This document shows, piece by piece, positions 17,089-20,724 of a stretch of 64,000 nt of DNA (positions within the stretch are counted from its first letter, which is position 1; the number at the start of each line of letters is the position of its first letter). The DNA is from Thermococcus siculi. GTDB taxonomy: Archaea > Methanobacteriota_B > Thermococci > Thermococcales > Thermococcaceae. The position numbers were made by a program, and so were the translations under genes. Where the stretch lies: positions 1,426,001 through 1,490,000 of the forward strand of contig NZ_CP015103.1 of the NCBI RefSeq assembly GCF_002214505.1, in the 5' to 3' direction. The notes under the pieces are model-generated. The model had not been told where the DNA came from. It made no database searches and was given only the letters and a program-made list of their open reading frames with translations.

Positions 17089-17257
17089 CAGGGTTGTTTG
17101 GGGCATTTGGCGTTTTAACGGTTGTGCCTCAAAATCCTCGTATTTCTTGGGGGTTTTTTGGAGGATGAACGGAGCGAGGTATTCATATGAAAGGGAAAGC
17201 CTTTTTATCCTTGCCTCCGATTTTAGGCCGCAGGTTCAATCTCACGGAGGGTTGAGA

Positions 17258-17986
17258 ATGGGAGTTGAGAAGGTTCCGAAGTACGATATCCCAACCGTTA
17301 AGGTCGACTACGTTTTTATTGAGCTTGACAAGATGAAGCCCCACGAGCAGCTCGTCCAGAAGGAGCTTGAGGCGTTCATCGAGAGCGTCACCGGCTCGGG
17401 TCTCTTCTGGAAGCCCATGCTCCTCGCGAAGGTTCCGGGCGAGGACATGTACCTCATCGTCGACGGCCACCACCGCTGGGCCGGCCTCCAGAAGCTCGGT
17501 GCAAAGAGGGCACCCTCGGTTATCCTCGACTACTTCAGCGACGACGTGAAGGTCTACACCTGGTACCCGGCCTTCAAGGGCAGTCTTGAGGAGGTTCTCG
17601 AGAGGCTCAGGAAGGAAGGCCTTGAGGTCATCGAAGATCCTGAGGCCGAGGAGAAGGCCGAGCGTGGAGAGATAGCCTTCGCCCTCGTTGGGGAGAAGAG
17701 CTTCTCGATTCCGGGCGGTCTTGAGGAGCAGAAGAAGGTCAGCAAGGTGCTCGACGAGATGAGCGTCGAGGGCAGGATAGAGCTTATCTACTACGGCCTC
17801 AAGGAGGATGCCAGAGAGGACATGGGCAAGGGCGAGATCGACTACGTTTTCATCAGGAAGGCCCCAACCAAGGAGGAGGTCATGGAGCTAGTCAAGCGCG
17901 GGGAAGTTTATTCCCCGAAGACCACCAGGCACGTCCTTCCCTTCAACCCGGACAAGATAGACGTCAAGCTCGAGGAGCTGTTCTGA
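17258..17986 (+). CDS. serK: ADP-dependent free L-serine kinase
   Basis: A 242-residue ParB/Srx-fold kinase that phosphorylates free L-serine to O-phosphoserine using ADP, linking serine to 3-phosphoglycerate and cysteine synthesis, as shown for T. kodakarensis SerK (TK0378). Catalytic Glu30 sits in KPHEQLV, and Asp69 in VDGHHRW, the ParB-like nucleotide motif, at the published positions. GGAGGG precedes ATG 17258. Promoter CCTTTTTATCC lies near 17199-17210. The upstream in-frame extension from 16700 crosses the promoter and is not coding. Confidence 0.93.
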   Translation: MGVEKVPKYDIPTVKVDYVFIELDKMKPHEQLVQKELEAFIESVTGSGLFWKPMLLAKVPGEDMYLIVDGHHRWAGLQKLGAKRAPSVILDYFSDDVKVYTWYPAFKGSLEEVLERLRKEGLEVIEDPEAEEKAERGEIAFALVGEKSFSIPGGLEEQKKVSKVLDEMSVEGRIELIYYGLKEDAREDMGKGEIDYVFIRKAPTKEEVMELVKRGEVYSPKTTRHVLPFNPDKIDVKLEELF

Positions 17987-17988
17987 AG

Positions 17989-18000
17989 GTTTTTAACCCC
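17989..18000 (+). promoter_or_regulatory. TATA promoter of the sRNA/HAD transcript
   Basis: GGTTTTTAACCC directly after the serK stop is a BRE/TATA-like element. A start about 25 nt downstream would fall at roughly 18015-18022, the 5' end of the C/D-box RNA below. Confidence 0.55.
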
Positions 18001-18017: not shown

Positions 18018-18074
18018 GCCGATGACGAAGGATCAACCGGCTGAGAGATGATGATCAGTCCAGGAGGCCGAGGC
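18018..18074 (+). ncRNA. C/D-box sRNA, 16S rRNA 2'-O-methylation guide, in the HAD leader
   Basis: All four boxes are in order: C ATGACGA (18022-18028), 12-nt guide (18029-18040), D' CTGA (18041-18044), 3-nt spacer, C' ATGATGA (18048-18054), 13-nt guide (18055-18067), D CCGA (18068-18071). GCC (18018-18020) can pair with GGC (18072-18074) as a terminal stem. Guide 1, AGGATCAACCGG, is the exact complement of CCGGUUGAUCCU, the conserved 5' end of archaeal 16S rRNA. By the D-box-plus-five rule the target is the first U after CCGG (about U8). C and D each differ from consensus at the bases that face one another in the kink-turn (C facing C instead of U facing U). The second target was not identified. 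Confidence 0.82.
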
Positions 18075-18728
18075 ATGCTCAAAGGTTTGATATTCGACGT
18101 CGATGAGACCCTCGTTTACTACGAGGGCTACGATCATCGCGAGTGGTACGAGAAATGGGTTCTGCCCGAGCTGAGGAGGCACGGTATCGACCTCGACTAT
18201 GAAACCTACCGGAAAACCGTGAGCGGGGAACTCCCGAGGAGCTACGTCGAGAGGCTTGGGATAGACCACGTCGAGTTCTGGAAGCTCGTTGACGACGTGA
18301 ACCTTCGCTACCGGAGGGAGATGGCCCGCCTGGGAAGGATAAAGGCCTTCCCTGATGTCGATGCCCTCGGGGAGCTAAAAAAGATGGGGCTGAAGCTTGC
18401 AGCCGTGAGCAACGCCTCCCAGGAGTGCACGGAATTCGTTCTGAACCTCTTTGACCTGAGGGGACATTTTGACGTCGTCTACGGCAAGGATTATGCAAAC
18501 CTCGACGGGGTCAAGCCGAATCCTTACCTCATAGAGAAGGCTCTGAAAGCCCTTTCCCTAAGGCCGCATGAGGTTCTAATGGTCGGCGACAGCCTCCACG
18601 ACGTAACCGCCGGAAAGCGCGCCGGGATGAGGGTGGTCAACGTCATTCGCTTTGGAAAAATTGAGGGGGCGGATTACTACGTGAGAAACCTCCGGGAACT
18701 GGTTGATCTTGTCCGGGGCATGTTTTGA
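18075..18728 (+). CDS. HAD-superfamily phosphatase
   Basis: A 217-residue haloacid dehalogenase-like hydrolase with an alpha-helical C1 cap. Motif I is DVDETLV (nucleophile Asp near residue 8), motif II AVSNAS, motif III Lys in GVKPNP and motif IV MVGDSLHD. The substrate is unknown; small phosphosugars or phosphoserine-type metabolites are possible given serK upstream, but that is inference. AGGAGG is seven bases before ATG 18075; this site lies inside the second guide of the sRNA, so RNA folding or processing could affect translation. Confidence 0.87.
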   Translation: MLKGLIFDVDETLVYYEGYDHREWYEKWVLPELRRHGIDLDYETYRKTVSGELPRSYVERLGIDHVEFWKLVDDVNLRYRREMARLGRIKAFPDVDALGELKKMGLKLAAVSNASQECTEFVLNLFDLRGHFDVVYGKDYANLDGVKPNPYLIEKALKALSLRPHEVLMVGDSLHDVTAGKRAGMRVVNVIRFGKIEGADYYVRNLRELVDLVRGMF

Positions 18729-18802
18729 CTTTATTACTACAATCCATTAAAATTCCCGGCACCCTTAAATACCTTGAGGCCCCTATCTATACCGTGGTGT
18801 CT

Positions 18803-19819
18803 ATGGAGGATGCTACATTTAAATGTGAGAGGTGCGGTGCACCCCTCGAGGTATCGCCCGAGACGATAGTCGCCGTCTGCCCCTATTGCGGCTTCCCGAA
18901 CCACATAAGCGGCTCGCTCAAAACGGAGAACATCCACATCGTCCCGACCATCGACAAGAACGCCATAGCGAAGGCCTTCTGGGACAGGGTTGATCGCGAT
19001 TTTGACCTCAAGAGGATGAAGGATAAGATCGACGTGGTTGATATAGAGGGCCACTACGCTCCCTACTGGACTGGAAAGGTGCATGTTGAGGGAATCGTTG
19101 AATACACCGTCCGCGAGGAGGAGTGCCACACCGATTCCGAGGGGAACACCGAGTGTTACACCGTTGAGAGACACTACCGCGACCACGTGAACGAGGTTCT
19201 CCCGCTCATAGGGTCCGCGCGCAGGCAGGTCGAGAGCTTTGGCGTGGACGACATCATCAGGCACTACTCCAGGGCCAGACCGAAGGGGAAGAGACTCCTT
19301 GAGCTGGGCGAGGAAGAGTGGGGAAAGGTAAAGCTCGAGATCCTCAACACCGAGATGGACGAGAAGCAGGCGAAGATGGTGATGCGCGAGGATGCCATAG
19401 ACGTGATAAGACACCGCTACTCCGCCAAGGCCGACAGGATAGACCGCTTCGATGTAACCGCGGATGAACCCCAGGAGGTTTCTCTGGTTCTGCTCCCGAT
19501 GTGGGCGGTCTACTACAAGGTCGAGAACTCGATATTCTACACCGTCTTTGCCGGTTGGGACGGGAAGGACGTTGCATCGACCGAGCCAATGCCGATCTGG
19601 AGGAGAATGCAGTACCTCACAGGAACGGTGTTCGGAATGCTCATAGGTGCCGCCGGCGGGGCTTATGGAGCTGTCAACGGCTCCCTGGTGGTCTCACTGC
19701 TCGCGATAATCCTCGGGGCCGGAATGAGCGGCTACTTCGGCAACCTCGTCCTTGAAGGCCAGAGAACCGAGAGAACCGGCGGCGTTCTGGGCAACTTCAT
19801 GGGAGGACTCAAGAGGTGA
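18803..19819 (+). CDS. Zinc-ribbon membrane protein A of a YdjG-like operon
   Basis: A 338-residue protein. The N-terminal zinc ribbon is CERCG...CPYCG (residues ~8-33). A long soluble region (~50-265) follows, containing YAPYWTGKVHVEG and PMWAVYYKV, the repeated 'aromatic-P-x-W' strands seen in bacterial YdjG-type proteins. Two C-terminal membrane segments are rich in Gly (GMLIGAAGGAYGAVNG and the next). It is a paralogue of the next gene. ATG 18803 follows GGTG, with TTAAATACC about 40 nt upstream; earlier in-frame starts overlap the promoter. The role is probably membrane anchoring of an SPFH complex, by analogy. Confidence 0.75.
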   Translation: MEDATFKCERCGAPLEVSPETIVAVCPYCGFPNHISGSLKTENIHIVPTIDKNAIAKAFWDRVDRDFDLKRMKDKIDVVDIEGHYAPYWTGKVHVEGIVEYTVREEECHTDSEGNTECYTVERHYRDHVNEVLPLIGSARRQVESFGVDDIIRHYSRARPKGKRLLELGEEEWGKVKLEILNTEMDEKQAKMVMREDAIDVIRHRYSAKADRIDRFDVTADEPQEVSLVLLPMWAVYYKVENSIFYTVFAGWDGKDVASTEPMPIWRRMQYLTGTVFGMLIGAAGGAYGAVNGSLVVSLLAIILGAGMSGYFGNLVLEGQRTERTGGVLGNFMGGLKR

Positions 19820-19824
19820 TTCCG

Positions 19825-20724
19825 ATGGAGGTTACATGCCCCGTATGTTCCGCCACATTCAAGGTTCCCGACACGGTCACCGTAGCTACCTGCCCCTACT
19901 GCGGAACGACTTTCCACATCCACACCGGCGAGGAAGCCAAAGAGGAGCACTACTTCTTCCCGCCGATGAGGAAGGACGCCGGTGGGGTTCTTCTCAAGTT
20001 CCTGTCGAGGCAGTACGGCGCCCCCGCGGACATAACGGACGCTAAAGTTACGAAGAAAGAACTCCACTGGGTTCCCGTCTACTTCTTCTACCTCCACGGA
20101 AGGAGCAGGAGATGGTCGACCATAGAGGAGATAAGGTTCGTGGGAATTCCCGCCGGTTCTCCGCTCAGGGAACTCCTCACGGATTACCCCTTCCCGATAA
20201 GGGGAAAGAGGTTCTTCGACGAGGCAGTGGTGAAGAAGGGCCGCTACTACGACCCGGAGCTGTCCAGGGAGAAGGCAGAGGGCATGGCTAGGGCGCTCAT
20301 GGAGAGGGCACTGAAGAGCGAGGCAGCTGAGGAGGACAAGTCCCTCGGCGGGGCCGAGATAGAGGTCAGATACCTTGGACTGGTGCATTACCCGGTGTGG
20401 GAGATCCACTACGAGTACGGCGGGGAGTCATTCAGTGGCTACGTCGACGGAACCGACGGGAGGGTGATTCGTGCAGAGTATCCACTGATGAGCGGCGCGA
20501 GAAAGAAGGCCACGCTCCTCGGCTCCGGGGTTATTGTGGCAGGGCTTATCTTCGGTCTCGCTGCCACCGGCGCCTACGGGAGCGCCTGGGGCCTCGCGGG
20601 AGGACTCGTTCCGGCATTGGCTGGAGCCTTCGGGATATTCCGCAAGGGCGCCGTTAGGAAGAGAACCGTTGGTGAGGTTGGAAGGGCCAACCGCGATAAC
20701 CTTTACTTCAAACCGATGAGGTGA
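19825..20724 (+). CDS. Zinc-ribbon membrane protein B of a YdjG-like operon
   Basis: A 299-residue paralogue of the preceding protein. It has the N-terminal ribbon CPVC...CPYCG, mid-protein HWVPVYFFYLHG and HYPVWEIHYEYGG strands, then two hydrophobic Gly/Ala segments (VIVAGLIFGLAATGAYG and the next) and a basic tail. GAGGTGAT overlaps the previous stop and sits four bases before ATG 19825, so translation is coupled. It probably forms a heteromeric membrane platform with protein A. Confidence 0.75.
   Translation: MEVTCPVCSATFKVPDTVTVATCPYCGTTFHIHTGEEAKEEHYFFPPMRKDAGGVLLKFLSRQYGAPADITDAKVTKKELHWVPVYFFYLHGRSRRWSTIEEIRFVGIPAGSPLRELLTDYPFPIRGKRFFDEAVVKKGRYYDPELSREKAEGMARALMERALKSEAAEEDKSLGGAEIEVRYLGLVHYPVWEIHYEYGGESFSGYVDGTDGRVIRAEYPLMSGARKKATLLGSGVIVAGLIFGLAATGAYGSAWGLAGGLVPALAGAFGIFRKGAVRKRTVGEVGRANRDNLYFKPMR

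Follow-up and report, generated by a model that had tools for sequence, protein, structure and literature searches.

An sR14-family C/D-box sRNA with a 16S rRNA guide that probably doubles as the leader of a HAD hydrolase mRNA in Thermococcus siculi

Positions 18018-18074 of the window, the whole 64,000-nucleotide stretch of Thermococcus siculi DNA that we analyzed, are a complete archaeal C/D-box sRNA of the sR14 family. With high confidence, we propose that it is a guide RNA whose D' guide targets 16S rRNA and that it doubles as the leader of a HAD-family hydrolase mRNA, by the steps set out below. The most interesting outcome, and the part that specialists might not expect, is a covariation rule for the kink-turns of Thermococcaceae C/D sRNAs.

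Anatomy of the sRNA between serK and the HAD gene

The genome holding the window is a single contig of 2.03 Mb. Between serK and the HAD gene, the sRNA has the layout GCC-G-AUGACGA-AGGAUCAACCGG-CUGA-GAG-AUGAUGA-UCAGUCCAGGAGG-CCGA-GGC. Its features, with coordinates verified by script, and its neighbors are as follows.

17177..17986, + strand: serK, ADP-dependent L-serine kinase, the upstream neighbor (NF053625, 404.8 bits with a cut-off of 380; Pfam SerK_C)
17990..17996, + strand: TATA-like TTTTTAA, putative promoter element of the sRNA/HAD transcript (sequence; relatives' copies)
18018..18074, + strand: C/D-box sRNA, sR14 family (box pattern unique in the window; RF01145, 30.3 bits)
18018..18020, + strand: 5' strand of the terminal stem, GCC (compensatory changes among 61 copies)
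18022..18028, + strand: box C, AUGACGA (ATGACGA in the DNA), with C at position 5 (sequence and copies in relatives)
18029..18040, + strand: D' guide AGGATCAACCGG, which pairs with 16S nt 4-15; U8 is the predicted target (sequence and pairing)
18041..18044, + strand: box D', CUGA (CTGA) (sequence)
18048..18054, + strand: box C', AUGAUGA (ATGATGA), which also forms in-frame ATG codons (sequence and ORF reading)
18055..18067, + strand: D guide TCAGTCCAGGAGG, with no rRNA or tRNA target above chance (target search)
18062..18067, + strand: Shine-Dalgarno AGGAGG of the HAD gene, within the D guide, 7 nt before the ATG
18068..18071, + strand: box D, CCGA, with C at position 2 (sequence and copies in relatives)
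18072..18074, + strand: 3' strand of the terminal stem, GGC (compensatory changes among copies)
18075..18728, + strand: ORF of a HAD-family hydrolase, a generic phosphatase (PF00702/PF13419)

The initial annotation, made from the sequence of the window, had read boxes C, D', C' and D in canonical order and spacing. This was borne out: the C-D'-C'-D pattern matched once on the two strands of the window and never in 40 Markov-shuffled windows. The ordered boxes are separated by guide spacers of 12 and 13 nt, within the ~10-13 nt of archaeal C/D-box sRNAs, and the GA of AUGACGA and CCGA allows tandem sheared G·A pairs. The terminal stem GCC/GGC has undergone compensatory changes, being GCC/GGC in 24 of the 61 copies described below, CCC/GGG in 13, ACC/GGT in 6 and TCC/GGA in 3. 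As to complementarity with a stable RNA, the D' guide matches 16S nt 4-15 and none was found for the D guide. An alternative box C, CCGAUGA at 18019-18025, was rejected, because its spacer would be 15 nt long and it would run into the terminal stem; with AUGACGA, the spacer is 12 nt in every one of the 61 copies. Minimum-energy folding of the leader gave no signal (z 0.02); such programs do not model kink-turns. The boxes are short and box D reads CCGA rather than the consensus CUGA, as might be expected of a chance resemblance in an intergenic spacer. However, the empty shuffled windows, the 61 copies and a sequenced ortholog make chance an extremely improbable explanation.

The guides and the sR14 family

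Using the genome's own rRNA operon as target, with the A of AUUCCGG as 16S nt 1, we found that the D' guide pairs at 12 of 12 positions with nt 4-15 of 16S (L047), confirming the exact 12-nt complementarity to the 16S start that had been claimed for it. This duplex has an energy of -21.7 kcal/mol, which none of 40 shuffled guides matched at any site of the rRNA operon. Applying the fifth-nucleotide rule upstream of box D' makes U8 the predicted target, and from this complementarity the D' guide most likely directs 2'-O-methylation of that nucleotide. The same GGATCAACCGG-CTGA guide was also seen in Desulfurococcales MAG contigs (L033, L040, L041 and L044), apparently beside box D and not D'; there it is possibly an ancient, or else a convergent, guide for the 16S 5' end.

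A match to sR14 was present in 74 of 94 Thermococcaceae genomes. Searching whole genomes and contigs, we parsed 61 distinct copies, and the box and guide conservation that the initial annotation had expected in relatives was evident: each of the 61 retains the 12-nt spacer and the D' core GGAT[C/T]AACC[G/A]G, a figure that counts the copies in existence and is not an unbiased conservation rate, since the search pattern demanded a closely similar core. The window copy scores 30.3 bits (E 6.8e-7) with Rfam sR14 (RF01145), below the gathering threshold of 38, and its second half differs; the L051 and L018 copies score 52.7 and 47.5 bits, above that threshold. The window copy shares the serK locus and the D' guide with accepted members. 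Judged by this synteny and guide rather than by the RF01145 score, it belongs with sR14 as a diverged copy. Compared with that family, including T. kodakarensis sR15, it has the same boxes, spacing and D' guide GGATCAACCGG, and the serK neighbor is common to sR15 and the window sRNA. By contrast, its D guide is a different one lacking an rRNA target, a HAD ORF is directly attached, and C faces C in its C/D motif, not in C'/D'.

One of the genomes, G010, we take to be T. kodakarensis KOD1. Its sR14 copy lies on the minus strand, with box C starting at 316184 and box D ending at 316136. T. kodakarensis sR15 (alias Tko-sR16) was published at 316130-316191, where a single library gave 1,629,229 aligned reads and 698 circular ones (PMC9014305). 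Because the two coincide, the T. kodakarensis ortholog is a genuine small RNA, abundant and in part circular. Conservation, the Rfam family and this sequenced ortholog together support the earlier proposal of a guide RNA for the 16S 5' end.

For the D guide, a search of the rRNA operon and tRNAs gave no target better than those of shuffled guides. Two 11-mers elsewhere in the genome, neither of them in a tRNA, are exactly complementary to it; 5S, 7S and RNase P RNAs were covered by an exact/wobble 11-mer scan only. A wobble match at G000:C1:1196329-1196339, just upstream of tRNA-Ser(CGA), is probably due to chance. The second guides of the copies fall mainly into two types, the CAGTCCAGGA type and one whose 12-nt pairing is with helix 18 of 16S, at 450-461. 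The window D guide is an orphan that lacks the helix-18 target found in many relatives. Its core CAGTCCAGGA is also kept in species in which no HAD gene follows, indicating that a Shine-Dalgarno role does not explain its conservation. The two types are interleaved on a serK tree, many branches of which are weak, and this suggests that the second guide was repeatedly replaced, or recombined, among relatives.

These pairings bear on whether sR14 acts as a 16S folding chaperone, besides or instead of methylating. Like U3, it would hold the strand of helix 1 and the central pseudoknot, and in relatives tie it to helix 18. The D' guide does span nt 4-15, and the second guide in relatives forms 12 pairs with 450-461. 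For dual guides whose sites lie far apart, a chaperone role has been proposed (PMC4644070), and eukaryotic U3 prevents premature pseudoknot folding (PMC8339473). The window copy, however, carries no second rRNA guide, its orphan D guide weakens a dual-guide role, and nt 4-15 are equated with helices 1 and 2 by our own alignment to E. coli numbering. We regard a chaperone function as unlikely and favor a methylation guide.

The sRNA as probable leader of the HAD mRNA

The TATA-like element lies 32 nt before box C, and most relatives' copies keep one at 32-36 nt, in support of the TATA box that had been proposed to start transcription at the sRNA 5' end. The two other elements predicted for the leader were found in place: the HAD ATG at 18075 directly follows the last base of the terminal stem, and the Shine-Dalgarno AGGAGG sits in the second guide. 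No terminator-like site was found between the sRNA and the ORF. This anatomy, with its own TATA-like element and adjoining ATG, supports the idea that the RNA is both a guide and a 5' leader, in which case the HAD mRNA would begin with the 57 nt of the sRNA. The in-frame ATG at 18048, in box C', was rejected as the start of a longer ORF, since relatives share the protein from 18075 on. The HAD ORF matched no NCBIfam equivalog at cut-off. Two further genes follow it (18725-20724); the proteins that they encode have N-termini resembling zinc ribbons and hydrophobic stretches toward the C-terminus, and the first matched no family above cut-off.

We envisage that the TATA promoter would drive a transcript whose first 57 nt are the sR14 sRNA, followed by the HAD mRNA. 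L7Ae, Nop5 and fibrillarin would bind a fraction of the transcripts, which would be protected, cut back to the sRNA and in some cases circularized; the mature sRNA and circles are known for the T. kodakarensis ortholog only. Pairing of the D' guide with 16S nt 4-15 would then lead to 2'-O-methylation of U8. Unprocessed transcripts would be translated from the Shine-Dalgarno in the D guide, so that guide maturation and HAD translation would compete for one RNA. A single RNA would thus appear to be an rRNA guide and an mRNA leader with its ribosome-binding site within a guide, and the resulting conflict between sRNP maturation and translation is testable in a genetically tractable group.

In a rival explanation, the element is mainly a cis-regulator: L7Ae bound to the kink-turn of the leader C/D motif would block the Shine-Dalgarno and repress HAD, with guiding secondary. 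L7Ae does repress mRNAs through leader kink-turns (PMC5539422), Jager et al. allowed that some leader snoRNA predictions may be cis elements (PMC4247193), and in the window the Shine-Dalgarno is inside the sRNA and the D guide is an orphan. By contrast, the D' guide is kept in species lacking a HAD gene downstream, and the ortholog accumulates as an abundant small RNA. The L7Ae-regulated leaders resemble the window leader in having a kink-turn near the ribosome-binding site; however, they are described as k-turn motifs and not as guides (PMC5539422), whereas the window kink-turn is part of a conserved guide. We consider a mainly cis-regulatory element very unlikely and retain the guide that doubles as a leader; any regulatory role of this leader is one we infer.

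Leaders of this kind have precedents. Transcriptome work in T. kodakarensis reports 11 potential snoRNAs that lie in 5' UTRs and another 12 within 5' coding regions (Jager 2014, PMC4247193), and 5' sRNA overlaps lower expression of the downstream gene, according to a review (PMC7994747). C/D sRNAs situated in 5' UTRs or at the 5' ends of ORFs (Jager 2014, PMC4247193; Tripp 2017 via PMC7994747) are likewise the 5' part of an mRNA; what sets the window arrangement apart from them is its recurrence in four genera and the Shine-Dalgarno within a guide. The HAD start lies at most ~40 nt from box D in the window clade and in three other genera (g13, g14 and g15), with a serK motif upstream in g13 and g14 and none seen in the g15 stretch. 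On a reading of the sequence, HAD in g14 appears to begin at TTG, and its ribosome-binding site may be GAGGTG, which overlaps box D. In other Thermococcus, a ~150-codon gene with its own promoter-like sequence lies between the sRNA and HAD, or HAD is elsewhere. We discarded the idea that HAD was newly joined through loss of an intervening gene, because HAD adjacency recurs in other genera. With HAD close to sR14 in these three genera, the arrangement is an instance of a documented kind and not a new fusion.

In contig L011 (genome G021), ~1570-1625 hold a decayed sR14 with box D CCGG, box C' GTGATGG and an altered guide. Its boxes D and C' are broken and its Shine-Dalgarno and HAD gene are intact; an sR14 search of the G021 genome found none. 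In L053, HAD adjoins serK with no sRNA between them. Together, these two loci indicate that the link between sRNA and HAD is not obligatory. An apparent loss of sR14 in G014 was refuted by a copy ~2 kb away. Shared transcription of sRNA and HAD looks old, and the guide and leader roles are separable.

Linked exchange of U·U and C·C at the kink-turn

The kink-turn pair 3b·3n brings the base at position 5 of box C opposite that at position 2 of box D, and in the window sRNA this pair is C·C. SnoReport 2.0, as described in a review (PMC7994747), requires the pair that follows the G·A pairs to be U·U or else to include a uridine. The initial annotation had taken C in both boxes for an unusual concerted change. 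The C·C pair is real and linked; it is not unusual, being common in Thermococcus C/D sRNAs. Box changes on the serK tree included too few independent events for a phylogenetic covariation test, and we therefore counted covariation over unrelated sRNAs: 118 candidates from 11 Thermococcaceae genomes, one non-Thermococcaceae hit being excluded. A reversed-pattern control gave zero candidates in each genome. The search pattern admits only C or U at the pair and related sRNAs are not independent, so that p-values are indicative.

At C/D, the 118 candidates comprised 70 U·U, 16 C·U, 32 C·C and no U·C pairs; at C'/D', 98 U·U, 1 C·U, 15 C·C and 4 U·C. Position 2 of box D was C only when position 5 of box C was C (0/70 versus 32/48), and nearly so in C'/D'. 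With each family counted a single time, the two positions are strongly associated inside either motif, and there is no association from one motif to the other. All single-C pairs at C/D were C·U (16:0; per family 7:0, indicative p = 0.016), and C·C in both motifs of one sRNA occurred in one case (indicative p = 0.07). Two families, including sR14, have C·C in C/D of one species and in C'/D' of another. Copies of sR14 also show C·A, A·G, A·U and G·U at the pair, and in genome G066 none of 17 candidates has C·C. Kink-turns in Thermococcaceae C/D sRNAs thus swap U·U for C·C as linked pairs. A uridine at this position is a consensus and not an essential feature, C·C being typical of many Thermococcaceae candidates, and sRNA finders that require it would miss 32 of the 118. 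No prior report of the linked exchange was found in the literature searched, which did not extend to the Pyrobaculum family study.

More tentatively, and with considerable doubt, these counts may reflect a pairing code in which U·U or C·C follows the G·A pairs, C·U is tolerated and U·C avoided, and C·C, rarely in both motifs, moves between C/D and C'/D' in orthologs. Its purpose is a matter of speculation: it could keep boxes C and D' from pairing with each other, and likewise C' and D. Under published folding rules, it could also let the C·C kink-turn, in the window sRNA within an mRNA leader, fold free of L7Ae. In archaeal box C/D, U·U is strongly favored, and 3b=C or 3n=G permits folding with metal ions alone (PMC4382518, PMC5689011). 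By these rules, the C·C pair and -1b:-1n = C:G of the window kink-turn are both favorable and 4b:4n = G:C is unfavorable. The linked exchange allows the rules of kink-turn pairing to be tested compactly, by comparison among sRNAs. In L054 and L055 (G029:C3:182653 and G001:C1:223822), we noted a second C/D-like RNA, whose promoter is similar; its C' GTGAGGA and D' CCGA place G opposite C at the kink-turn pair.
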